Positions 8,387 through 26,836 of a stretch of 35,980 nt of DNA are shown piece by piece (position 1 is the stretch's first letter; the number at the start of each line of letters is the position of its first letter). The translations under genes were made by a program, and so were the position numbers. Under the pieces are notes generated by a model. The model was given only the letters and a program-made list of their open reading frames with translations. It ran no database searches and had not been told where the DNA came from. Source of the DNA: Candidatus Aenigmatarchaeota archaeon (GTDB taxonomy: Archaea > Aenigmatarchaeota > Aenigmatarchaeia > QMZP01 > QMZT01); contig WVZE01000020.1 of the NCBI GenBank assembly GCA_011772645.1, positions 1 to 35,980 of the forward strand, read 5' to 3'.

Positions 8387-9877
8387 ATGTTGTATGATGA
8401 AGATTACTGGAAATGTTTTGTGGATACTGGATTTGAATCTAGAGGTCCCCACAGTGATTTAAAAACACGGAATCTTGTGCTGCAGGAGATGCCTCAGACA
8501 AATGAAGAGGAAAGAATCCAGAGAATGCGTTCTCATATGCGTGAAGGTTTAGACTCAATGCTTGGCAGGAGTAGCAAAGAAAGGTATATATCTGATGCTG
8601 AGGCAGAGGAGATGTCACGCAAGATAAAAACAATAATTGAGGAAAAAGGACCTGCCTTCAGATATACACCTGAATTCTTTAAAACAATTGCAGATGAAAG
8701 AGTGCGAAGACAAGCTTACAAATCAATTGAGCTTACTGGAATTCCGAATGAAGAGGAAAAGGATATTTTGAAAAATCCCTTCAAATATCTTGGATTACCC
8801 AATACAACCACCTTTGACCAGATCAGAGCCGCATTTATATCTTACTCAAAAGTCTATCATCCTGATATTGTGAATCCCCAGAATAAGAGGCAGAGAGAAC
8901 TTATCTTCGGAATTAAACCATATAAATTAGAGAGTGGGGAGAATCTTGATGAATGGCTCAAGGAAATTGCAAAACAACATCCTCCAGAAACAAAGTCTGT
9001 AGGGGAATTGGATAAAATGACAGAAAAAGAGAGGGAAAATTATAGGAATGAGCACGAAGCCTATCATATTTTGGAGGAGAAATATGAAGCAGTCAAAACA
9101 GAGATGAGAGTTAGGGCTACAAAGAAAATGCAGATAATTACCAAAGCGTACAAAGCTGCAAAAGCACTATTCTCGGAACAGGTTACATCAGGTCTAGGAG
9201 GATTTGAATGGGAGAGGGTTATACAAAAATCAGATTTTTTACAAAGTTTAGGGGGTCCTGACTTTGACGGCTTTCAGTATGAGAGTCTTCCTCTTGAGGG
9301 GGAGGGAGAAATAAGAAGAGACGTTGGCAGATTTAACAGCAGCAGAGAGGTATATCTTGCATACGATTTTGGAGAGGTTTATCTTGGTGGACCAGACTAT
9401 ATGCAGAGGCTACCTTTAAAAAAGTTTTTTGCATGGGTTGAGTTGCGGCAGGGCAGAGAGCTAAGTCCTTTACTGCTTGATGATATTGTTGAGTATTATG
9501 AACTAAATGCTGACAAAGCTGAACAACTCAGAGTAATGATAATGAACAGGGAATCCCCAAATTTTATTGTTGATGCTCTTGATATCGAGGAAGTAGAAAA
9601 AACCCATCCAAATTATTTAAGATGGTTTGTTGAATTTGCACTGCTTGGTCCTGAATTTTCACACCTAGTAGGTCAGCGTGATGATGTCCAGTATAAGCTT
9701 GGTGTTGAATTTACAAAAGATGATGGTATGCTTTTGAAATACGTCACTCAAGAAAGTGAGTACAATTTTTGGTGCTGCGGGAAAATGAAGCAGACTGCTC
9801 ATTTTACGCCAGAAGATGTTAAGATGATGACTGTACTGGCTTATGGCCCATTGCTGAATCAGATGGAAAAAATTTAA
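8387..9877 (+). CDS. J-domain-containing protein with large insertion in the J-domain
   Basis: NPFKYLGLPNTTTFDQIRAAFISYSKVYHPDIVNP has J-domain helix II plus HPD; helix III-like KKMQIITKAYKAAKALF occurs about 90 aa later. Confidence 0.7.
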   Translation: MLYDEDYWKCFVDTGFESRGPHSDLKTRNLVLQEMPQTNEEERIQRMRSHMREGLDSMLGRSSKERYISDAEAEEMSRKIKTIIEEKGPAFRYTPEFFKTIADERVRRQAYKSIELTGIPNEEEKDILKNPFKYLGLPNTTTFDQIRAAFISYSKVYHPDIVNPQNKRQRELIFGIKPYKLESGENLDEWLKEIAKQHPPETKSVGELDKMTEKERENYRNEHEAYHILEEKYEAVKTEMRVRATKKMQIITKAYKAAKALFSEQVTSGLGGFEWERVIQKSDFLQSLGGPDFDGFQYESLPLEGEGEIRRDVGRFNSSREVYLAYDFGEVYLGGPDYMQRLPLKKFFAWVELRQGRELSPLLLDDIVEYYELNADKAEQLRVMIMNRESPNFIVDALDIEEVEKTHPNYLRWFVEFALLGPEFSHLVGQRDDVQYKLGVEFTKDDGMLLKYVTQESEYNFWCCGKMKQTAHFTPEDVKMMTVLAYGPLLNQMEKI

Positions 9878-10033: not shown

Positions 10034-10052
10034 CTTATTCGTATCTCAGGGC
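10034..10052. repeat. 19-bp direct repeat, copy 2
   Basis: CTTATTCGTATCTCAGGGC, identical to 8225-8243. Confidence 0.85.
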
Positions 10053-11138
10053 TTCTATCGGGCTAAGCTTAGCGGCCTGCCTGGCAGGGAGGATCCCTGA
10101 AACGATCCCTATAAAGGCAGCGAACAGGATTCCCTGTATCACGAGTCTTGGCGTTACCAGGGCGAGAGGTTGCATAAGGATCATGTTAATGTAGGAAGTA
10201 CCGCCAAAGCTCAGGATTATGCCCACTATCGCTCCTCCCACACTTATGGTCACGGCCTCCAAGAGTATCGCAAGCAAGACCTGCTTGTTCGTTGCCCCTA
10301 TCGCCTTCATGGTTCCTATATCCCTTCTCCTCTCGCGAACGGAAATGATCATCACGTTCATTATCACTATCCCCGAAATCAGGGCTGCAATGCTTCCAAG
10401 CGCGAAGGTCATCAGGTTCAACTGGCTCGTCATCTCACTAACCGAGTTCATGATGCTCTTGTCGCTCGCCGCCTGGATGTCATCGAAATCGTCGTTTATC
10501 GCCTGCTCTATGAAGTCCGCATCCGCCGGCGTCGAGGGCTGGATCATCATAATAGATATTTTTCCCTCGTTATCGGTGAGTTCCTGGAGGTCCTTCAAAG
10601 GCATGTTAACGGAATTATCCATACCGCTGTCTCCGGTTTCTTCCAGAATCCCCACTATTTCGTATTCCTTTTCATCCAGCTTTATCACGTCCCCTACCGA
10701 GTAATCGTTTTTTTCGGCGTAGCCGGTTCCTATTATTAACTCTTTTTGTCCCTCCTCGTAATCCCTTCCCTCGCCTACCTCAATCGTTACGCCTCTTATG
10801 ATGTTCTCGGTTCCCGGAGGGGTTCCAGTGATGCTGACACCGTCAACCGTTTCGAAAAGTATGGCAGCGACGTTTTCGACACCGGATATGCTCTCAACCT
10901 CTTCCACAAGATCCTCATCTATCTCGCTCTGCTGTATCATGAAACCGAAAACGCCCTTCTCAACAACGGTTACCAGACCGGAGGTGATTGCTATCTGGTC
11001 GTTCACGAAATAGGTTATGCCCTCTGAGAACGAGGAAACGCTCGTCACAAGAAATATCCCTATCATAACTCCGAGCATTGTCAAAACCGTTCGCAGTTTG
11101 TGCCTTCCGAATTCCCTTAACATCGCTTCCCACATCAT
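10035..11138 (-). CDS. ABC transporter permease, MacB/FtsX family
   Basis: MLREFGRHKLRTVLTMLGVMIGIFLV... and RRRDIGTMKAIGATNKQV...PIEALRYE. Confidence 0.9.
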   Translation of the reverse strand: MMWEAMLREFGRHKLRTVLTMLGVMIGIFLVTSVSSFSEGITYFVNDQIAITSGLVTVVEKGVFGFMIQQSEIDEDLVEEVESISGVENVAAILFETVDGVSITGTPPGTENIIRGVTIEVGEGRDYEEGQKELIIGTGYAEKNDYSVGDVIKLDEKEYEIVGILEETGDSGMDNSVNMPLKDLQELTDNEGKISIMMIQPSTPADADFIEQAINDDFDDIQAASDKSIMNSVSEMTSQLNLMTFALGSIAALISGIVIMNVMIISVRERRRDIGTMKAIGATNKQVLLAILLEAVTISVGGAIVGIILSFGGTSYINMILMQPLALVTPRLVIQGILFAAFIGIVSGILPARQAAKLSPIEALRYE

Positions 11139-11200
11139 TTTGCATTACCTTCCTATTCTGTAAACTTATTCTGTCAGGCTTGCCCTGACTTTCCGTTCGT

Positions 11201-12325
11201 TTATCCCTCCCTTATCGCCTTTATCGGATCTGTTTTGACCGCTATCCAGGCCGGATACAGGCTTGATATAACCGTGAGCAAAACCCCGTAAGCGACCGCC
11301 CCTATCGCGAGGACAGGGGTTATGACTGCGAGATTAATACCCCCCAGCAAAACGTTGTTGAGCAGGTCAACGAAAAAGAATGAAATTCCGACCGCTAAAA
11401 CGCTGCTCGCAACTGATAACAGCAGTCCTTCCTGAAGTATCTGAATGAGGATCGTCCTCCTCAAAGCCCCTACAGCCTTCATTATCCCGAGCTGTCTTCT
11501 CCGTTCAAGGACAGAGGTGTACATGGTGATTATAATCCCTATCGCAGCAACAATTGAAGCGATAAAACCTATCCCGAAAGTCATTATGTTGAGCGTACCA
11601 GTCACCTCCTCCATCATCGAGAGGGCGTCTTCCATCGTCATCGCATCGAGATCGTCGTGCTCATCCTCTATGGTTTGCTTTATCTCTTCAACCAGCGTTA
11701 CGTCCTCTGGTTCTATTATTATCTGCGTTGCACCCCCTTCTGTTTCGTATATCTCATCCGCGTAATCGTAAGGCATGAGTATAACCAGGTCGTACGCTCC
11801 TGAGCCTTCCTCGAATATTCCCATAACCTCCACTTCCTTTTTGTTCAGGGTTATGTAGTCCCCCACAACAACATCCAGCATGCTTGCCGGAAGAAACCCA
11901 AGAGCTGCTCCCCTGTCTTCGTTTTCAGGCCATCCGCCTTCCTTGAATTCCAGGTTCTCCGCACCGAACATGTCAACGTTATCCATATCAAGACCGTCAA
12001 CCTCGAAAAATCCGCCAAATTGTCTGGCTATTATAGGAACAACTCTATCGACTCCGGATAAAGATTTTAGCTCCTCTAACGTATCGGCTTCAATATCCTC
12101 TATCTGGTATGCGCCACCCGGTCCGATCATTTCAGAAATTTCAAAGCTCTTCATAACAAAAACGTAGTCACTCCCAAGAATCCCGGAAGAGGCTATGAGC
12201 TCGTTCACCCCCGCGGATATCGAACCGAGAGAAACAATCGCGGTTATCGCTATGAATATCCCCAGGGCTGTCAGTATCGTCCGAACCTTGTGTTCCTTCA
12301 GGTCCTTCAAAGCGAGATCAAGCAT
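11201..12325 (-). CDS. ABC transporter permease, MacB/FtsX family
   Basis: DLKEHKVRTILTALGIFIAITAIVSLGSIS...; RRRQLGIMKAVGALRRTI. Confidence 0.9.
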   Translation of the reverse strand: MLDLALKDLKEHKVRTILTALGIFIAITAIVSLGSISAGVNELIASSGILGSDYVFVMKSFEISEMIGPGGAYQIEDIEADTLEELKSLSGVDRVVPIIARQFGGFFEVDGLDMDNVDMFGAENLEFKEGGWPENEDRGAALGFLPASMLDVVVGDYITLNKKEVEVMGIFEEGSGAYDLVILMPYDYADEIYETEGGATQIIIEPEDVTLVEEIKQTIEDEHDDLDAMTMEDALSMMEEVTGTLNIMTFGIGFIASIVAAIGIIITMYTSVLERRRQLGIMKAVGALRRTILIQILQEGLLLSVASSVLAVGISFFFVDLLNNVLLGGINLAVITPVLAIGAVAYGVLLTVISSLYPAWIAVKTDPIKAIREG

Positions 12326-18282: not shown

Positions 18283-18789
18283 ATGGAGATCTGGTATCTG
18301 ATAACACTGATAGGAACGCCCGAATTCTGGCTGGCATTCACCGGGGTTCTGGTCCTCGCCTATCTTTTCATAAGAAGAAGAATCCCTCAGGAAACCAGGA
18401 GATTTGTCAGGCACGGAATCCTGATCTTCATAATAAGTCTCTGGGTCACGGCAGGCATAGCGTTCTCCCTGAAGTATTCGATCCCTATCGAAAGGCCCTG
18501 CGTGCCGTGCGCGGAGGGGATAACCGAATGCAACCCCTACTGCATGGAGGACAACTCCTTCCCGTCCGGCCACACGGCCGTGATATTCTGCGTGGTCACG
18601 TCCGTGTTACTCGTATTCAGGAAAAAGAAGCTGATCGTGCTCTTCGCTGTATCTTTCCTTGTTGCCCTTTCGAGATACTTCCTCAGGGTCCACTATCCCG
18701 TGGACATACTGACCGGGGCTGTTATAGGGACATTTGTACCGATAATCGTTTATGAAATCTACAGAAAAAGGTCAGGATTTGTATCTTAA
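18283..18789 (+). CDS. PAP2-family membrane phosphatase
   Basis: KYSIPIERP, PSGHTAV, SRYFLRVHYPVDILTG motifs. Confidence 0.85.
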   Translation: MEIWYLITLIGTPEFWLAFTGVLVLAYLFIRRRIPQETRRFVRHGILIFIISLWVTAGIAFSLKYSIPIERPCVPCAEGITECNPYCMEDNSFPSGHTAVIFCVVTSVLLVFRKKKLIVLFAVSFLVALSRYFLRVHYPVDILTGAVIGTFVPIIVYEIYRKRSGFVS

Positions 18790-19998
18790 TATCCCGCCTA
18801 TGCCGCCCATCTCTTTCAATTGGCTTCCCTCTTTGGTCTCAGCGGAGACCATCTCCACGTCCGTCCCCATCTCCTCTGCGAGTTTTATGATCTCGTCCGT
18901 AAGGTCCTTCTCGGCCAGGATATCGTAAAGCTCCCCGCATTTCTTGCATTTTTTCCCCTCGGCCTGCTTCCTTGTCATTATCAGGTCCTTCTCCTCCCCG
19001 CATTTTGGGCACTGGGCCCTCGCCTTGACCCAGTCGAAGTGTTCCGAGATCAGGAGAACTTCCACTGTCCCTGACTTGAGGGACTGGGCGACCTCCTTCA
19101 GTCCGTACACGGCCAGGCCGGAATCCTTCCCGAGTTCGTCGAAGAACCTGCCGAGCAGCTTTTTCTCCTTCATCACGCTCGCTTCCTTCAGGGCTTCCTC
19201 TGACCTGTTAACGGCCTCCTCGAGACCGTACTCCCCGGTGTAGGAGGTGTCCACGACCGAGATCACCTTCTCCTGGAAATCGTACCTTATGAATTTCCCG
19301 TTCATGAACCTGTCCTTCACAGGGCCTGGTCCCCCCACGATGACGCCCTTGAGGTCCTTGAGGTCGCTGAACTGCTGGGAGGCGACGTCGCCGACCTTCT
19401 TCATGAAGTCGTGGAGCAATCCCTCACGTACGCGGGCGTACCTCGCCTGGGACCAACCTCCCTTGTCGGTCTTGCCGGGAACGAGGGAATCCAGATGTTT
19501 AAGGGATTTTATCCTCTTTCCCTGGAGTACCCCGATCTCAGCCTCTGACTTGTCCAGGACTATGATCCCGTAAACCTCCTTCTCCCTGACCATGTCCTTG
19601 AGGGGATCGAGCACGAACTTCTGGTCGCACCAGTACAGTTTCTGCCTCATGGGTTCTGGAGGCTCGAGCGCGTAGATCTCGATGTCCGCCACGCCCTCGC
19701 GTTCGGAGATGTTCCCGGAGAACAGGACGAGGCCGTTCTCTGGCGTCTGCTTGTACAATTTCAAATGCTGGAGGATCCGTTCGAGAGCCGACATCACGTT
19801 CTTTTTCACGGTCTTTGATTTTATGTTCTGGGCGGTTGACTGCTCGTTCCTGATCTGCTCCACCACCTTGTTCAGGTTGTAACCGGAAGGAATGTAAACG
19901 GAAACGAGTTCAGTATGTCGACCGCGAAAGCCATCTAGTTCTTCGACTAGATCTTTCAGTCTTCTCTTCCGGATATCTTCCTTCGTCATTGCAGACAC
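18772..19998 (-). CDS. prf1: Peptide chain release factor aRF1 (GGQ replaced by GGW)
   Basis: NIKS (AQNIKSKTVKK) and YWCDQKF retained; Zn-ribbon CPKCG..CKKCG; catalytic loop reads GKTDKGGWSQARYARVRE. Confidence 0.92.
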   Translation of the reverse strand: MSAMTKEDIRKRRLKDLVEELDGFRGRHTELVSVYIPSGYNLNKVVEQIRNEQSTAQNIKSKTVKKNVMSALERILQHLKLYKQTPENGLVLFSGNISEREGVADIEIYALEPPEPMRQKLYWCDQKFVLDPLKDMVREKEVYGIIVLDKSEAEIGVLQGKRIKSLKHLDSLVPGKTDKGGWSQARYARVREGLLHDFMKKVGDVASQQFSDLKDLKGVIVGGPGPVKDRFMNGKFIRYDFQEKVISVVDTSYTGEYGLEEAVNRSEEALKEASVMKEKKLLGRFFDELGKDSGLAVYGLKEVAQSLKSGTVEVLLISEHFDWVKARAQCPKCGEEKDLIMTRKQAEGKKCKKCGELYDILAEKDLTDEIIKLAEEMGTDVEMVSAETKEGSQLKEMGGIGGILRYKS

Positions 19999-20046: not shown

Positions 20047-21408
20047 TCAGACCCTTATCTGGAAAACCAGCGGGTTTTCCCGGGTTACATCAGGATTAAA
20101 GGCGAGAACTTCCTCAAGAATCACGAAACTCGTGTCGTAGTCTGATTTCTGTTTGTATTCTGACGTAGTCGAATATTCGCTCGTGACATGGTAATCGGAA
20201 AGCGATACTTCTTCCTTTTTGGAATTATACTTATCTTCTGAAACAGCATCTTCTATGTGTGTTTCTTTCTTTACCTGAACCTCAAAAACCTCGTTAAGCG
20301 GTGGTTTACTTGAAGGAACTTTTGTGGATGTGACAAATCTCCAAACTTCCTTTCTTGTCTCAAGATTGATGCAGTATAAGTTGCAATCCCAAGAACCGAA
20401 GTAAAGAAGATCATCATGTATTAAGGGTTCGTTGTATATCTTCCCTCCGGTCTTGAATCTCCAGACTTCTTTGCCTTCATTGCTAACAGCATAAATATTA
20501 CCGTCTTCACATCCAAAAATTACCTGCTCTTTGTACATTATGTAACTCTGGTCAATTATTGCACCTCCTGCACTGAATTGCCAAAGTTCTTTTCCGCTTT
20601 CTGGATCCAGAGCGTACAAAACACCGCTTCTTGATCCATGATACAAAATGCCTTTCCTGACAGTAGGTGTGCCTCCAGAATTGCCAAAGTTGCCTGTCTT
20701 TTTTTTCCAAACAAGTTTTCCAGTTTCTACATCGGCCGCGTATACAAAACTGTCCATTGAGGCAAAATATATAATATCTTTGTATATACAGAAAGGTACA
20801 TCATTTACCATCTCATCCCCTGTTGTAAGCCTCCAGATCTCCTTACCTGTCTCTGCATCCAGGCAGTACATGTTATGATCATAAGAAGTTACATACAATC
20901 TCCCATTGTACAATCTCGGCATTGAGGCTACAGGTCCTCCTGTTCTGAATTTCCATGCCTCTTTTCCTTCGATGGTTATACAATATACATACCCGTCCTT
21001 AGAGCCGAAATAAAATTTTTCTCTTCCTAACGCACCAGAAACGAATATACTATCACCTGTCTGGAAGGTCCAGATTATCTCGCCTTTTTTTGAATCTATT
21101 GCATAAAGCTTTCCGTCGAATGAGCCTATGAAGAATACATCTCCATGAAAAATAGGGGTTGAATCTGTGATAATTCCATCTGTCTTAACCCTCCATATCT
21201 CTTGACCATTAGAGATGTCAACAGCGTAAACATTCTGGTCACAGCAACCGAAATAAACTATGCCATCCCTTATTACAGGACTACTGTCTATACTCCCCCC
21301 TATGCTCATCTTCCATATGCGATCGTAAGTCTTCGTTTTTCTGACTTCTACTTCTTCTATCCCAACATCGAAGTCTGAGGACTCAAATCCTTCAAATCCG
21401 AAGTCCAT
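20047..21408 (-). CDS. PQQ-like beta-propeller protein, tandem copy 5 (last in transcription order)
   Basis: About eight repeats of YFGS.DG.VYA.D..TGKEIWRF.TGG; N-term MDFGFEGFESSDFDVGIEEV; tail SDYHVTSEYSTTSEYKQKSDYD. Confidence 0.9.
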   Translation of the reverse strand: MDFGFEGFESSDFDVGIEEVEVRKTKTYDRIWKMSIGGSIDSSPVIRDGIVYFGCCDQNVYAVDISNGQEIWRVKTDGIITDSTPIFHGDVFFIGSFDGKLYAIDSKKGEIIWTFQTGDSIFVSGALGREKFYFGSKDGYVYCITIEGKEAWKFRTGGPVASMPRLYNGRLYVTSYDHNMYCLDAETGKEIWRLTTGDEMVNDVPFCIYKDIIYFASMDSFVYAADVETGKLVWKKKTGNFGNSGGTPTVRKGILYHGSRSGVLYALDPESGKELWQFSAGGAIIDQSYIMYKEQVIFGCEDGNIYAVSNEGKEVWRFKTGGKIYNEPLIHDDLLYFGSWDCNLYCINLETRKEVWRFVTSTKVPSSKPPLNEVFEVQVKKETHIEDAVSEDKYNSKKEEVSLSDYHVTSEYSTTSEYKQKSDYDTSFVILEEVLAFNPDVTRENPLVFQIRV

Positions 21409-22721
21409 ACTTCATCCTCCATTATTCCTTCGAATATGACCAGATTAACATCATAATCAGACTTTTGTCTGTACTCGCTTGTTGTGGAATATTCGCTCGT
21501 CAGGTGGTAGTCGGAAAGGTTTACTTCCTCCACGTTCTTTGAGCTGTATTTTTCCTGAGAAACCTCTTCCTTCGGGCTCTCCTTCTTGATGACTATCTCG
21601 AACTGCTCGTGGGGGGGAGGACCCACAGAAGGCGTTTTCATGCTTGTAGCGAACCTCCATATCTCCTCGCCCGTGTCTGGATTGAGGATGTAAAGGTGGC
21701 AGTCCATGGAGCACGCTATCAGCATGCCGTTGTAGAGGGAAGGGGCATCGTAGGAGCCTCCCTTGCCGAAGTGATATCTCCAGACTTCCTTCCCGTTTCT
21801 GCCCAGGCAGTAGAGGTTCCCGTCCTCGGAGCCGAAGTATACGCGGTTGTTGATGATGCTTATTCCTATCAGCATTTCCTTGGCCCTGAACCTCCAGATT
21901 TCCTTGCCGTCCATGGTCAGGCAGTAAACATAACCGTCCCTGGAACCCGTTACCAGGGAATCACCCATAACAACAGCGCACGTATTGTTCCCGAATTTGC
22001 CCGTCCTGAACCTCCAGATTTCCTTTCCTGTTTCCACGTCAACGGCGTACAGGTAGCTGTCATGTGAGGTCACGTAAACGACTCCGTTATGAACGGTTGC
22101 AGGGAAGTCCATGAATATCTCGCCTCCAGTCTTGAATCTCCAGAGTTCTTTACCTTCCTTCCTGTCCAGGCAGTAAAAATACCCGTCAAAACTCCCCACC
22201 ATGACCTTCTCCTTGTAAACGCAGGGACCCGAAGCTATCTCCCCTCCTGTCTTGAATCTCCACAGCAAAGAACCGTCAAAAACATTGAGCGCGTAAAGGT
22301 AACCGGTCTTGGAACCGAAGTAGACCACGTCATCGCATATCTCAGGCCGGCTGTAGAGCTTGTCCCCTGTCCTGAAACTCCAGATTTCCTTCCCGTTCCT
22401 TATGTCAAGACAATAGATGTTTCCCTGGAAGCAGGAAAAGCACACCATGTTCTTGTACACATTCGAGGGCGGGCTTCCGTTAGGCCCGTTTGACCTGTAT
22501 TTCCACAGCAGTCTCCTGGTTTTCAGGTTAACTGCATAGAAATAACTGTCCATTGCTGGGAAATAGACTACGTCCTTGTGAATTACGTGAAAGGTGGTGC
22601 TACCCCCGGGGCTCCATTCCCATATGCGCGTGAATTTGCGGGTTCTCTTGACCTCGATTTCCTCCACGTCTACATCGAAACCCGAGAATCCGGAATCAAA
22701 TCCCTCGAATCCGAATGGCAT
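21357..22721 (-). CDS. PQQ-like beta-propeller protein, tandem copy 4
   Basis: Same repeats; N-term MPFGFEGFDSGFSGFDVDVEEI; tail SDYHLTSEYSTTSEYRQKSDYD. Confidence 0.9.
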   Translation of the reverse strand: MPFGFEGFDSGFSGFDVDVEEIEVKRTRKFTRIWEWSPGGSTTFHVIHKDVVYFPAMDSYFYAVNLKTRRLLWKYRSNGPNGSPPSNVYKNMVCFSCFQGNIYCLDIRNGKEIWSFRTGDKLYSRPEICDDVVYFGSKTGYLYALNVFDGSLLWRFKTGGEIASGPCVYKEKVMVGSFDGYFYCLDRKEGKELWRFKTGGEIFMDFPATVHNGVVYVTSHDSYLYAVDVETGKEIWRFRTGKFGNNTCAVVMGDSLVTGSRDGYVYCLTMDGKEIWRFRAKEMLIGISIINNRVYFGSEDGNLYCLGRNGKEVWRYHFGKGGSYDAPSLYNGMLIACSMDCHLYILNPDTGEEIWRFATSMKTPSVGPPPHEQFEIVIKKESPKEEVSQEKYSSKNVEEVNLSDYHLTSEYSTTSEYRQKSDYDVNLVIFEGIMEDEVWTSDLKDLSPQTSMLG

Positions 22722-24046
22722 GGCAACTCCTCCATATTTAAAATTCCTTCAAACATCACGAAGCTCGTATCGTAGTCTGATTTCTGCTTGTATTCGGAAG
22801 TGGTCGAATACTCGCTCTGAACATGGTAATCCGAGAGTGAGACGCTGTCCTCCTTTTTCTCCTTGTATTTTTCCTCGGAAACAGCGTCTTCCATGTGGGT
22901 CTCCTTTTTGACCTCCACCTCAAAGGAAGCGTGCGGATGGGGTATGTAGGATTCAACGAGGGTCGAGGTGGGGGTCCTCCAGAGTTCCTTTCGTTCCTCT
23001 ATATCCACAGCGTAAAAATAACAGTCCCATGAACCAATGTAGATCACGCCTTCGTGCATGAGGAACTTCCCGTAGAGCTTTCCGCTTGTCCTGAATCTCC
23101 AGAGCTCCTTGCCTTCGAGGCTGAGGAAATACAGGTTCCCGTCCTCGCAGCCGAATATGATCATATCCTTGTAGATCCTCGGCTGCTGCGCGATTATGGG
23201 TCCTCCTGCCCTGAACCTCCAGATCCCCTTGCCTTCGAGCGTCAGGGCGAAGAATTCGCCGTCCCTTGAGCCGAAGTAAATTATTCCTTTGTGTATCGCA
23301 GGTATGCCTCCGCCTATACCGTACTTGCCCGCCTGGAACCTCCATAGTTCCTTACCCGTGTCCGCATTGACAGCGTAAAGATTGCTGTCAAGGCCGCCGA
23401 AAAATAAAACGTTCCTGTGTATCAAGAAGGGCATGTTGTTTATCATCTCGTCCCCGGTCCTGAACCGCCAGATTTCCTTACCCGTTCCCGCGTCCAAGCA
23501 GTACATGTTGTTGTCGTAGGAGGTTATGTAGACCTTCCCGCTCTCAACCAGAGGAGCAGATGCTATCTCCCCTCCTGTCTTGAACCTCCAGATTTCCTTG
23601 CCTGTCTCGCAGCTGACAGCATAGACGTTTCCGTCCCTTGAGCCGAAATAAGCGTTTTCCCCGTAAACGAAGGGCGAGCTGAATATCTCCCCGGAGGTTT
23701 TGAAAATCCAGACTGTTTCTCTTTTTTCGAGGTCGATCCTGTAGAGGTTCTTGTCGCAGGAGCCGATTATTATGGAGTTGCCGAAAAGTGCGGGAGAAGA
23801 GCCTAAGATCCTGTCGTTGGTCTTGAATCTCCATACGATCTCGCCTGTTTTTTGATCCGCACCGTAAACATATCCGTCCTGCGCCCCGAAGTATATGATT
23901 CCTTTGTGTATTATCGGGTTGTTGTCTATGCTTCCGCCTATGCTCGTCTTCCACACCCTGTCATATGTTTTGACTTTACTGACCACGACATCCTCTATTT
24001 CTACATCAAAATCTGAGGATTCAAACCCTTCGAATCCGATGTCCAT
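22670..24046 (-). CDS. PQQ-like beta-propeller protein, tandem copy 3
   Basis: Same repeats; N-term MDIGFEGFESSDFDVEIEDV; tail SDYHVQSEYSTTSEYKQKSDYD. Confidence 0.9.
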   Translation of the reverse strand: MDIGFEGFESSDFDVEIEDVVVSKVKTYDRVWKTSIGGSIDNNPIIHKGIIYFGAQDGYVYGADQKTGEIVWRFKTNDRILGSSPALFGNSIIIGSCDKNLYRIDLEKRETVWIFKTSGEIFSSPFVYGENAYFGSRDGNVYAVSCETGKEIWRFKTGGEIASAPLVESGKVYITSYDNNMYCLDAGTGKEIWRFRTGDEMINNMPFLIHRNVLFFGGLDSNLYAVNADTGKELWRFQAGKYGIGGGIPAIHKGIIYFGSRDGEFFALTLEGKGIWRFRAGGPIIAQQPRIYKDMIIFGCEDGNLYFLSLEGKELWRFRTSGKLYGKFLMHEGVIYIGSWDCYFYAVDIEERKELWRTPTSTLVESYIPHPHASFEVEVKKETHMEDAVSEEKYKEKKEDSVSLSDYHVQSEYSTTSEYKQKSDYDTSFVMFEGILNMEELPCHSDSRDLIPDSRVSM

Positions 24047-25359
24047 ATGCTCTCCTCCTCCATAATATCTTCAAACATAACTAGCGAAACGTCGTAGTCA
24101 GATTTTTGTTTGTATTCTGATTCGGTTGAATATTCGCTTTCAACGTGATAATCGGAAAGGGAAACTGTTTCCTCTTTTTTCTTCTTGTATTTTTCCTCGT
24201 CTGCCTCCTCTTCGATATGACTTTCTTTCTTTATCTCCACCTTGAAAGAGCCGTGAGGAGGTGGTAAGAAAGACTGTTCATTGGTTGAAGTGGGAACTCT
24301 CCATAGTTCGTTCCCTTCCAAGTCATATGCGTAAAGATTACAATCCCAGGAACCAACAAAAACTTTGTCTTTGTAAAGAACAGGCGGGACCATCAGAATG
24401 TTTATCTTCTTTTTCCAGACTTCATGCCCTTCGAAATCTATCAGGTAAAGGAAACCATCTTCACTGATAATGAACATCCCCCTATCCGAGATTTGCGGTT
24501 TTTGCCATGTGGAGGCTCCCGAAGTTCTGTATCTCCATATCTCCTTCCCCTCCAAGGTCAGGGCGTAAAGGATTCCGTCCCTTGCAACGAAATATATAAC
24601 GTTTTTGTGAATGGTCACATTTCCCGAGTTGCCGTATTCTCCTGTTCTGAACCTCCAAATCTCCTTTCCTGTATCTGCATCTATTGCATAAAGGAAATTG
24701 TCAAAACTTCCGAAGTAAAGAACTCCGTTTTCAATCACCAGCGGAAGGTTGTTAATTATCTCTCCTCCTGTCTTGAACCTCCAAATCTCCTTTCCTGTCT
24801 CGGCTTCAAGGCAGTAGAGATTCGAATCGTGAGAACCTATGTAAACCCTTCCGTTCCATATTTGAGGACAGGACCCTACAGCATCACTTGCCTTGAACCG
24901 CCATATTTCCTTGCCATTCGAAACATCAACGGAATAAACATAGCCGTCAACCGAACCGAAATATACATTACCGTTCTCAGCGTTGGGTGAACCGAATATT
25001 TTATCGCCAGTTCTGAACCTCCATATTTCATTTCCTGTTTCTATATCAATGCAGTACAAGCAATAATCATAGCTACCTATGAATAATTTTCCGTCCTTCA
25101 CCATGGGACAGGAACCGAATATCAACGCATCTGTCTTGAATCTCCAGACAGTTTTGCCTGTATCTATTTCAACAGCGTAAACGTAACCGTTTGCCTCCCC
25201 GAAATAAGCAACGTTATTTTCGATGAACGGAACGCTGGTTATGCTTCCTCCCTTTCCCACTAAGAACATCCTGTCGAACTTTCCGACCTTCTTGACCTCG
25301 ACATCCTCTATTTCTGCATCAAAATCTGAGGATTCAAACCCTTCGAATCCGATATCCAT
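24001..25359 (-). CDS. PQQ-like beta-propeller protein, tandem copy 2
   Basis: Same repeats; N-term MDIGFEGFESSDFDAEIEDV; tail SDYHVESEYSTESEYKQKSDYD. Confidence 0.9.
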   Translation of the reverse strand: MDIGFEGFESSDFDAEIEDVEVKKVGKFDRMFLVGKGGSITSVPFIENNVAYFGEANGYVYAVEIDTGKTVWRFKTDALIFGSCPMVKDGKLFIGSYDYCLYCIDIETGNEIWRFRTGDKIFGSPNAENGNVYFGSVDGYVYSVDVSNGKEIWRFKASDAVGSCPQIWNGRVYIGSHDSNLYCLEAETGKEIWRFKTGGEIINNLPLVIENGVLYFGSFDNFLYAIDADTGKEIWRFRTGEYGNSGNVTIHKNVIYFVARDGILYALTLEGKEIWRYRTSGASTWQKPQISDRGMFIISEDGFLYLIDFEGHEVWKKKINILMVPPVLYKDKVFVGSWDCNLYAYDLEGNELWRVPTSTNEQSFLPPPHGSFKVEIKKESHIEEEADEEKYKKKKEETVSLSDYHVESEYSTESEYKQKSDYDVSLVMFEDIMEEESIWTSDSKGLNPQILM

Positions 25360-26690
25360 ATGCTCTCCTCCTCCATAATTCCTTCAAACATTACGAAAGT
25401 TGTGTCGTAATCCGACTTTTGTTTGTACTCGCTCTCGCTTGAGTACTCGCTCGTGACGTGATAATCCGAGAGCGAAACGCTTTCCTCTTCCTTTTTCTTT
25501 TTGTACTTTTCCCCTTCAACAGCTTCCTCCACGCCCGTATCCTTCTTCACCTCGAGTTCGAAACACTCGAAAGGTTCAGGTAACAAGGCAGGTTTGTTGG
25601 TGCTCGTCTGGAATCTCCAGATTTCTTCTCCTGTTTCTGGATCAGCCAGATACAAATGGCAGTCCCAGCTTCCGAAACACAGAACTCCCTCTATTAGAAC
25701 TACAGAAGTGTAAACGCCTCCGTTCGTTTGGAACCTCCAGAGTTCTTTTCCATCGAGCGAAAGGCAGTAAACGTTCCCATCCCCGGCTCCGAAATAAATT
25801 TTTTCGTTGTGAACTAGCGGGCCTTTGTCTATGATTTCCTTTCCGGTCTGGAACCTCCACAATTCTTTTCCTTCAAGTGTGAGCGCGTATAAAATCCCGT
25901 CCCTGGAACCGTAATACAAAACGTTTTCGTGGAGTGTGGGGATCCCGCAGTTCCCGTATTTACCTGTCCTGAACCTCCATACTTCCTTCCCGTTCTCCGT
26001 ATTTATCGCGTAAAGGTTGTTGTCGAAAGAACCGAAGTACATAATACCGTTGTGAACAAGGAAAGGATAGTCGTTCTCGATTTCCGCCCCTGATTTGAAC
26101 CTCCATATCTCTTTGCCTGTCTCTGCCTCCAAACAATAGATAAACCCGGAAAATGAGCCTATTATCATTTTCTCTCCTACAACAATCGGTGAAGAGGTGA
26201 CAGCGTCACCCGTATTGTATCTCCAGACCAGCTCGCCTGTTTTCACATCAACTGCGTATGCAAACCCGTCCTTGCTTCCGAAGTAGGCTTTCCCGTTACT
26301 TACGAAAGCGGTTGTGTTTATCTCGCCTCCGGTCTTGTGGTGCCATACCTCTTTCCCTGTGTTAACATCAATACAGTACATGTTGCCATCGAAAGAACCT
26401 ATTAGAACAGTGTCTTCATGAATCGTTGGGGAAGAGTCCAAAAACACTCCGTTCCCCCTGAATCTCCAGATCTCCTTTCGTGTGGTGAAGTCCAGGGCGT
26501 AAACATGATTATCGAGCGAGGAGAAAATTAGCATACCCTTATGAATAACCGGACGTCCGCAAACGCTCCCTCCGAACGTGACCTTCCATATCCTGTCGTA
26601 TTTCCTCTTCTTCTTGACCTGAACGTCTTCCACGTCCACGTCAAAATCCCCGAACTCGGAAGTTCCGAATCCCTCGAAATCGAGATCCAT
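25308..26690 (-). CDS. PQQ-like beta-propeller protein, tandem copy 1 (first in transcription order)
   Basis: Same repeats; N-term MDLDFEGFGTSEFGDFDVDVEDV; tail SDYHVTSEYSSESEYKQKSDYD; GAGGTG Shine-Dalgarno just upstream. Confidence 0.9.
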   Translation of the reverse strand: MDLDFEGFGTSEFGDFDVDVEDVQVKKKRKYDRIWKVTFGGSVCGRPVIHKGMLIFSSLDNHVYALDFTTRKEIWRFRGNGVFLDSSPTIHEDTVLIGSFDGNMYCIDVNTGKEVWHHKTGGEINTTAFVSNGKAYFGSKDGFAYAVDVKTGELVWRYNTGDAVTSSPIVVGEKMIIGSFSGFIYCLEAETGKEIWRFKSGAEIENDYPFLVHNGIMYFGSFDNNLYAINTENGKEVWRFRTGKYGNCGIPTLHENVLYYGSRDGILYALTLEGKELWRFQTGKEIIDKGPLVHNEKIYFGAGDGNVYCLSLDGKELWRFQTNGGVYTSVVLIEGVLCFGSWDCHLYLADPETGEEIWRFQTSTNKPALLPEPFECFELEVKKDTGVEEAVEGEKYKKKKEEESVSLSDYHVTSEYSSESEYKQKSDYDTTFVMFEGIMEEESIWISDSKGLNPQILMQK

Positions 26691-26727: not shown

Positions 26728-26742
26728 TTGGTTTATAAAGCT
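26728..26742 (-). promoter_or_regulatory. Candidate TATA box of the propeller array
   Basis: Minus-strand GCTTTATAAACC about 40 nt upstream of the first start codon. Confidence 0.45.
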
Positions 26743-26836
26743 TTTTGTTACCTAAAAGTTGTTAATTTTTAGGTATTTAGTGTATCCGGGCAAACAATTC
26801 AAATTTAAAGGAAAAGTTTAATAAATGATACATAAC

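Follow-up and report, generated by a model that had tools for sequence, protein, structure and literature searches.

Beta-propellers built from pyrroloquinoline quinone (PQQ)-like repeats are known from BamB (TIGR03300/PF13360), from the PQQ-dependent alcohol dehydrogenases (TIGR03075, PF01011), and from YxaL of Bacillus velezensis (PDB 7dxn, 7eq5) and the AfsK-type kinase propellers (NF053615), the last two of which are secreted or kinase-fused. Here we describe a family of proteins of this kind encoded by a five-gene array of Candidatus Aenigmatarchaeota archaeon (GCA_011772645.1, contig WVZE01000020.1). The array lies at positions 20047 to 26690 of a 35,980-nucleotide (nt) stretch, which was analyzed as a whole and is referred to as the window, and all five array proteins carry a C-terminal tail of four tyrosine hexads, about 24 residues in length, with the consensus (S[DE]Yxxx)4. 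In this family, the propellers resemble their orthologues in other genera, whereas the tails resemble the other tails of the same genome. Secreted or surface beta-propellers of other DPANN archaea are the subject of two reports that do not cover the array family (PMC5498576, PMC10266531), and no account of it was found in the open-access literature.

All five array proteins exceed the Pfam cutoffs for PQQ_2 (PF13360; 142 to 231 bits versus 27.6) and Beta-prop_ACSF4 (PF13570; 197 to 264 bits versus 133), and by fold they belong to the PQQ-like beta-propeller superfamily. The AlphaFold2 model of the gene 3 product, based on an input alignment of 110 sequences, has eight four-stranded blades (predicted local distance difference test [pLDDT] score of about 97), which together with the Pfam matches bears out the about eight blades per protein proposed in the original prediction, made from the sequence alone. 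An additional strand is contributed by the N-terminal motif (residues 19 to 24) and another follows the last blade (residues 375 to 380); the residues past ~393, including the entire tail, mostly have pLDDT scores below 50, i.e., are predicted to be disordered. A copy encoded outside the arrays (scattered copy), folded separately, gave the same eight blades and a disordered tail. The best matches among solved structures were designed propellers, followed by tetrathionate hydrolase, BamB, and YxaL. YxaL and the AfsK-type propellers are among the closest natural eight-bladed structures (~26% identity) but have no tyrosine tail, whereas the array family is leaderless and tailed. BamB shares with the array proteins the eight-bladed PQQ-like fold and sequence similarity along the propeller; however, the array proteins (154 to 174 bits) stay below the BamB equivalog cutoff of 285, and unlike BamB, the family is archaeal, has many paralogues, lacks a lipoprotein signal, and carries the tyrosine-hexad tail. 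The W-motif blade sequence is held in common with the PQQ dehydrogenases, but the array proteins (about 104 to 108 bits) do not reach the subfamily cutoff of 480 and are shorter and leaderless. Neither a signal peptide nor a strong hydrophobic N-terminal segment was present in the window copies, as had been predicted, and the propellers are probably located in the cytoplasm. Near the N terminus, the six highest 15-residue hydropathy values of the 123 copies scanned were ~1.5 to 2.1, with the start codon being uncertain in some. A PADLOC search for antiphage defense systems gave zero matches.

Propeller cores and tyrosine tails within and between genomes

The propeller cores pair as orthologues between genera, with identities of up to 80%, compared to about 43% for paralogues of the same genome. 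The tails behave differently. At the nine x positions of hexads 1 to 3, identity was 0.635 within genomes but 0.356 between genomes, whereas the cores showed no such gap (0.426 and 0.435, respectively). The tail was nearer to those of its own paralogues than to that of the best cross-genome core match in 42 of 50 copies (sign test, 1e-6), and the within-minus-between effect of the tail (0.279) lay well outside a label permutation null with a maximum of 0.097. This homogenization persisted without the most divergent genome and was also seen in the scattered copies. Genome-specific columns (p of 0.001 or less) made up 13 of the 30 tail columns, 4 of the 24 columns of the N terminus (a weak signal), none of the 28 linker columns, and 1 of the 346 propeller columns, a value close to that expected by chance. 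According to the original prediction, an N-terminal motif and the four-hexad tail, both of which we found in 5 of 5 array proteins, suggest a common docking partner. The tail agrees with this proposal, as genome-specific covariation at the protein level is confined to it. The N-terminal motif is far weaker evidence of docking because residues 19 to 24 are part of the fold, as one of its strands, and the codons of the first residues are shared with the upstream gene. Docking of the tails on the propellers themselves was also considered and was rejected, since hardly any propeller column is genome specific.

Where the amino acid agrees within a genome, tails showed a codon identity of 0.457, compared to 0.440 for cores. 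The synonymous codons are thus hardly more alike in tails than in cores, and recent gene conversion was rejected as the overall source of the tail similarity. Selection on the protein sequence would explain the likeness better, and the simplest cause of the pattern would be selection toward a common, genome-specific binding requirement. The same data bear on whether these could be ordinary BamB- or quinoprotein-type propellers that were multiplied by duplication and retain the tail as a neutral leftover. The Pfam, NCBIfam, and structure matches all fall in that superfamily, but a tail whose conservation exceeds that of the fold core and which is homogenized at the protein level, in proteins that lack a signal peptide and do not reach the BamB and dehydrogenase cutoffs, makes this explanation improbable.

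A DNA pattern derived from the tail located it in array genes 1 to 5 at 25407 to 25469 (SDYHVTSEYSSESEYKQKSDY), 24094 to 24156, 22772 to 22834, 21453 to 21515, and 20137 to 20199, respectively, all on the minus strand; a representative tail peptide is SDYHVTSEYSTTSEYKQKSDYD. The pattern had 20 matches in the window assembly, and its strict form matched each of the eight family genomes that carry propellers, as well as one genome from another family (f4), with zero matches to the reversed pattern in either case. A loose, tyrosine-only DNA pattern was too unspecific and was discarded. At least three tyrosines at an exact six-residue spacing occur in 96% of the 96 family copies, versus 1.8% in shuffled sequences, and in 17 of 17 copies of the sister family f5 (1.5% in shuffles); the tyrosines of families f4 and f2 are mostly seven to eight residues apart. 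The tail profile matched 16 of 160 genomes of the phylum, all from one order, and the matches were located in propellers, propeller fragments, one relic, and contig-end fragments. Nothing significant was found with the profile in Pfam and PDB. The scattered copies usually terminate directly after the last tyrosine, and in array-type copies a short hydrophobic segment continues beyond the tail.

The positions that distinguish the paralogues were sought in 21 orthologue pairs, which are not mutually independent, and 205 paralogue pairs. Twenty-two positions vary among paralogues yet are retained between orthologues, and 16 of these fall in the D-A loops, which hold 77 of the 323 positions (Fisher p, 6e-7). 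The ratio of orthologue to paralogue mismatches was likewise lowest in the D-A loops (0.39), followed by the B-C loops (0.50), versus 0.74 to 0.76 in the A-B and C-D loops. In a beta-propeller, the top face, which is usually the side that binds ligands, consists of the D-A and B-C loops. From this general topology, and not from model coordinates, the D-A loops probably represent the ligand face of the array family, and each paralogue seems to have retained a ligand of its own from one genus to another. As judged from these comparisons, endogenous ligands may fit the D-A pattern better than a host arms race does.

A candidate adaptor family and the alternatives

We consider it an even prospect that the family consists of cytoplasmic adaptor (receptor) proteins, in which variable heads are combined with a constant tail that meets a common partner or a shared assembly. 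The top face of each eight-bladed propeller would recognize one particular ligand, conserved between genera, and the flexible C-terminal (S[DE]Yxxx)4 tail, which may bind a common partner, would connect every copy to the same partner or assembly. Many different ligands could thereby be gathered at one hub.

The main rival to this arrangement is tail-tail binding, in which the regularly spaced tyrosines would serve as stickers, or form beta-strands, through which all copies coassemble into a fiber or condensate displaying many heads. Homotypic assembly equally explains why the tails covary within a genome and the propellers do not, a six-residue spacing would align all of the tyrosines along the same side of an extended strand, and the tail on its own is disordered in the AlphaFold2 models of two copies. 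However, the tail comprises only about 24 residues and is rich in both acidic and basic residues, and no structural or family precedent emerged from the profile searches of PDB and Pfam; we regard coassembly as unlikely.

Less likely still is a role of the tail in export or delivery, as a tag by which the leaderless propellers would leave the cell or enter a partner cell. The absence of leaders is in keeping with such a tag, as are a C-terminal tail that is alike within a genome and the small genome sizes, a trait of host-dependent DPANN archaea. Host dependence with small genomes is established for DPANN archaea in general, not for the window genome. On the other hand, no secretion genes adjoin the arrays, and the D-A loop surfaces are conserved across genera, unlike the expected trace of a host arms race. 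The tail was also compared by inspection with the YxxxD/E signal of the type VII secretion system, which was rejected because the acidic residues of the tail are at Tyr+5 and not at +4. An encapsulin shell would be another tail-addressed destination. In encapsulin cargo, as here, several proteins share a C-terminal tag, which is read by one shell, but no shell gene was found in any of the eight tail-bearing genomes of the family, with control genomes being positive, and cargo loading was rejected.

The ends of the proteins also recall the HbYX-type (hydrophobic-Tyr-X) docking of a C-terminal tyrosine on the 20S proteasome, by which the propellers would serve as degradation substrate receptors. 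A penultimate tyrosine is present in 35 of the 96 copies of the family itself and in 10 of 23 from more distant families, in some as IYK or VYK, and proteasome subunits are encoded in 40 of 41 genomes searched, the exception being the incomplete window assembly. This near universality among relatives is not discriminating, and the proteasome genes do not track propeller presence. Moreover, the residue preceding the tyrosine is usually E or D and not hydrophobic, the tyrosine of array copies is buried behind 20 to 40 further residues, and the sister family f5 lacks a penultimate tyrosine, which together make proteasome docking very improbable.

Several points weigh against the adaptor reading. 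The evidence for it is comparative throughout, and tail-tail coassembly or an export tag would yield the same tail homogenization. Genome G001 is an exception to the codon result, with a mild excess of codon identity in tails (0.540 versus 0.413 in cores), and older gene conversion followed by purifying selection may lie behind the tail likeness. The head comparison uses orthologue pairs that are not independent, and the genomes are incomplete metagenome-assembled genomes. Two near relatives (G003 and G014) have neither propellers nor tail, so the system is dispensable. Finally, the array neighbors are housekeeping genes, with no recurring functional neighbor and no partner gene among them.

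Array layout, gene overlaps, and distribution

The array comprises five open reading frames (ORFs) of 452 to 460 amino acids (aa), all on the minus strand, and the ORF coordinates confirm the predicted same-strand paralogues, with start-to-start distances of 1331, 1313, 1325, and 1313 bp. Gene 1 (25308 to 26690; 460 aa) is first in the operon and has orthologues in G004, G005, G007, and G001. It is followed by gene 2 (24001 to 25359; 452 aa), gene 3 (22670 to 24046; 458 aa), the core of which is 76% identical to an orthologue from another genus, gene 4 (21357 to 22721; 454 aa), and the operon-last gene 5 (20047 to 21408; 453 aa), with a core 73% identical to its G004 orthologue. Each encodes an eight-bladed propeller with a tail, and the products are 48% to 52% identical to that of gene 1. 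A promoter-like element, CTTTTAGGTAACAAAAA-GC-TTTATAAA, resembling a B recognition element (BRE)/TATA box, lies upstream of gene 1 (26732 to 26758, minus strand), which also has a ribosome-binding site, and similar elements precede array genes in four other genera (G001, G004, G006, and G007). Most scattered copies differ in having a TATA-like box ~20 to 25 nt ahead of the ATG, and their mRNAs appear to be leaderless.

Four of the five genes run past the start of the next gene, with overlaps of 52, 46, 52, and 52 bp. The first, between the end of gene 1 and the start of gene 2 (25308 to 25359, minus strand), is 52 bp long and out of frame, and the Shine-Dalgarno sequence of gene 2, GGAGGAGGAG (about 25374 to 25365, minus strand), is embedded in gene 1 codons. 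The ATGGAGG ribosome-binding site of each next gene lies within the final codons of the preceding one, so that the same DNA encodes, in different frames, both what follows FEGI and part of the conserved beginning of the next protein. The residues after FEGI are therefore the Shine-Dalgarno sequence and first codons of the next gene read out of frame and not an independent motif. The segment FVMFEGI, expected after every tail, is present in two of the five proteins and is not strict, the others having LVMFEDI, LVIFEGI, or FVILEEV. In relatives, the overlaps are mostly 43 to 61 nt, and each of the 44 has a length of 1 mod 3. This uniform phase, with a Shine-Dalgarno-like run alongside, would be compatible with -1 frameshifting that fuses the overlapping frames into multipropeller polyproteins. 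The common 4-nt ATGA overlaps share the same phase, however, slippery heptamers lack conservation and were seen at just 5 of 32 junctions, and the Shine-Dalgarno sequence is well positioned for the next ATG; fusion by frameshifting is thus extremely improbable. The final genes of several arrays (L106, 5508 to 6899; L114, 4524 to 5879; L124, 2153 to 3547) have Thr-rich ends (MNSGFTTTTTTSR and MNSVTTATTGSKTTTTGTTTSL) and do not overlap the next gene.

The five adjoining genes are not the whole set. The window assembly (775 kb; 78% complete) contains about 17 propeller copies or fragments, and of eight other genomes of the same family, seven carry 4 to about 20 copies and one carries none; the sister families mostly have fewer. 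Some copies are grouped in operon arrays and others are scattered as individual genes, and array size varies from 1 to about 11, with many copies standing alone, which speaks against the assembly of five related subunits suggested initially. Nor are the homologues single-copy secreted BamB-like proteins devoid of the motifs, the relatives being multicopy, leaderless, and tailed. When two conserved peptides were scanned against the genomes of 85,488 species, they were found in Candidatus Aenigmatarchaeota only, the phylum to which named records assign the propeller group. The near relative G012 (93% complete) retains only a deletion relic (L177, 1474 to 1962, minus strand), in which the start and the tailed end of a propeller gene are on the same strand. 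In G034, which belongs to another family and has its own tail type, an array of the window-family type (L111, 8346 to 11026) looks decayed, with a split gene, a truncated gene, and an N run, possibly as a result of transfer and subsequent decay.

A FEN-1 gene is located near the array in five genera. On the far side, the array adjoins eRF1 in two genomes (the window and G007) and a threonyl-tRNA synthetase or other housekeeping gene elsewhere. In the window, the eRF1 gene (18772 to 19998, minus strand) has the same orientation as the array and starts ~50 bp beyond the end of gene 5, and read-through transcription from the array is possible. A second array end in the window genome (L124 on contig C43, 151 to 3547) adjoins a tRNA synthetase gene, assigned to the threonyl type by similarity to the neighbors in G004 and G001, in each of which one array end is likewise beside threonyl-tRNA synthetase. 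Elsewhere in the window, an adjacent pair of MacB/FtsX-type, ABC export-like permease genes (10035 to 12325, minus strand) and an ORF of 496 aa with no Pfam match at 1e-5 (8387 to 9877, plus strand) were found.

Comparison with propeller-based receptors

With about 17 copies, each of about 1.35 kb, ~3% of the 775-kb genome of a reduced, probably dependent archaeon is given over to a single family of leaderless, receptor-like proteins, a share that suggests a yet undescribed process of importance to these DPANN cells. A shared partner would be expected to leave just this signature, with heads tracking the gene and tails tracking the genome, and a 24-residue peptide therefore offers an experimental way to search for the hub. 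In addition, the tail model provides an annotation handle for possibly misnamed "BamB-like" and "PQQ-binding-like" proteins of this archaeal order. More tentatively, and with some doubt, the family could constitute a modular archaeal receptor system, in which dozens of heads with their own conserved ligands share one tyrosine-hexad docking code tuned in each genome to a single hub, as a prokaryotic counterpart of the receptor adaptor logic of eukaryotic propeller ligases. The F-box/WD40 proteins (e.g., Fbw7) and the Kelch-Cullin receptors similarly combine varied propeller heads, one constant docking element, and many paralogues. The likeness is in the way of working and is an analogy, not membership, as the array family has neither an F-box nor a BTB domain and would dock by a short C-terminal tail.

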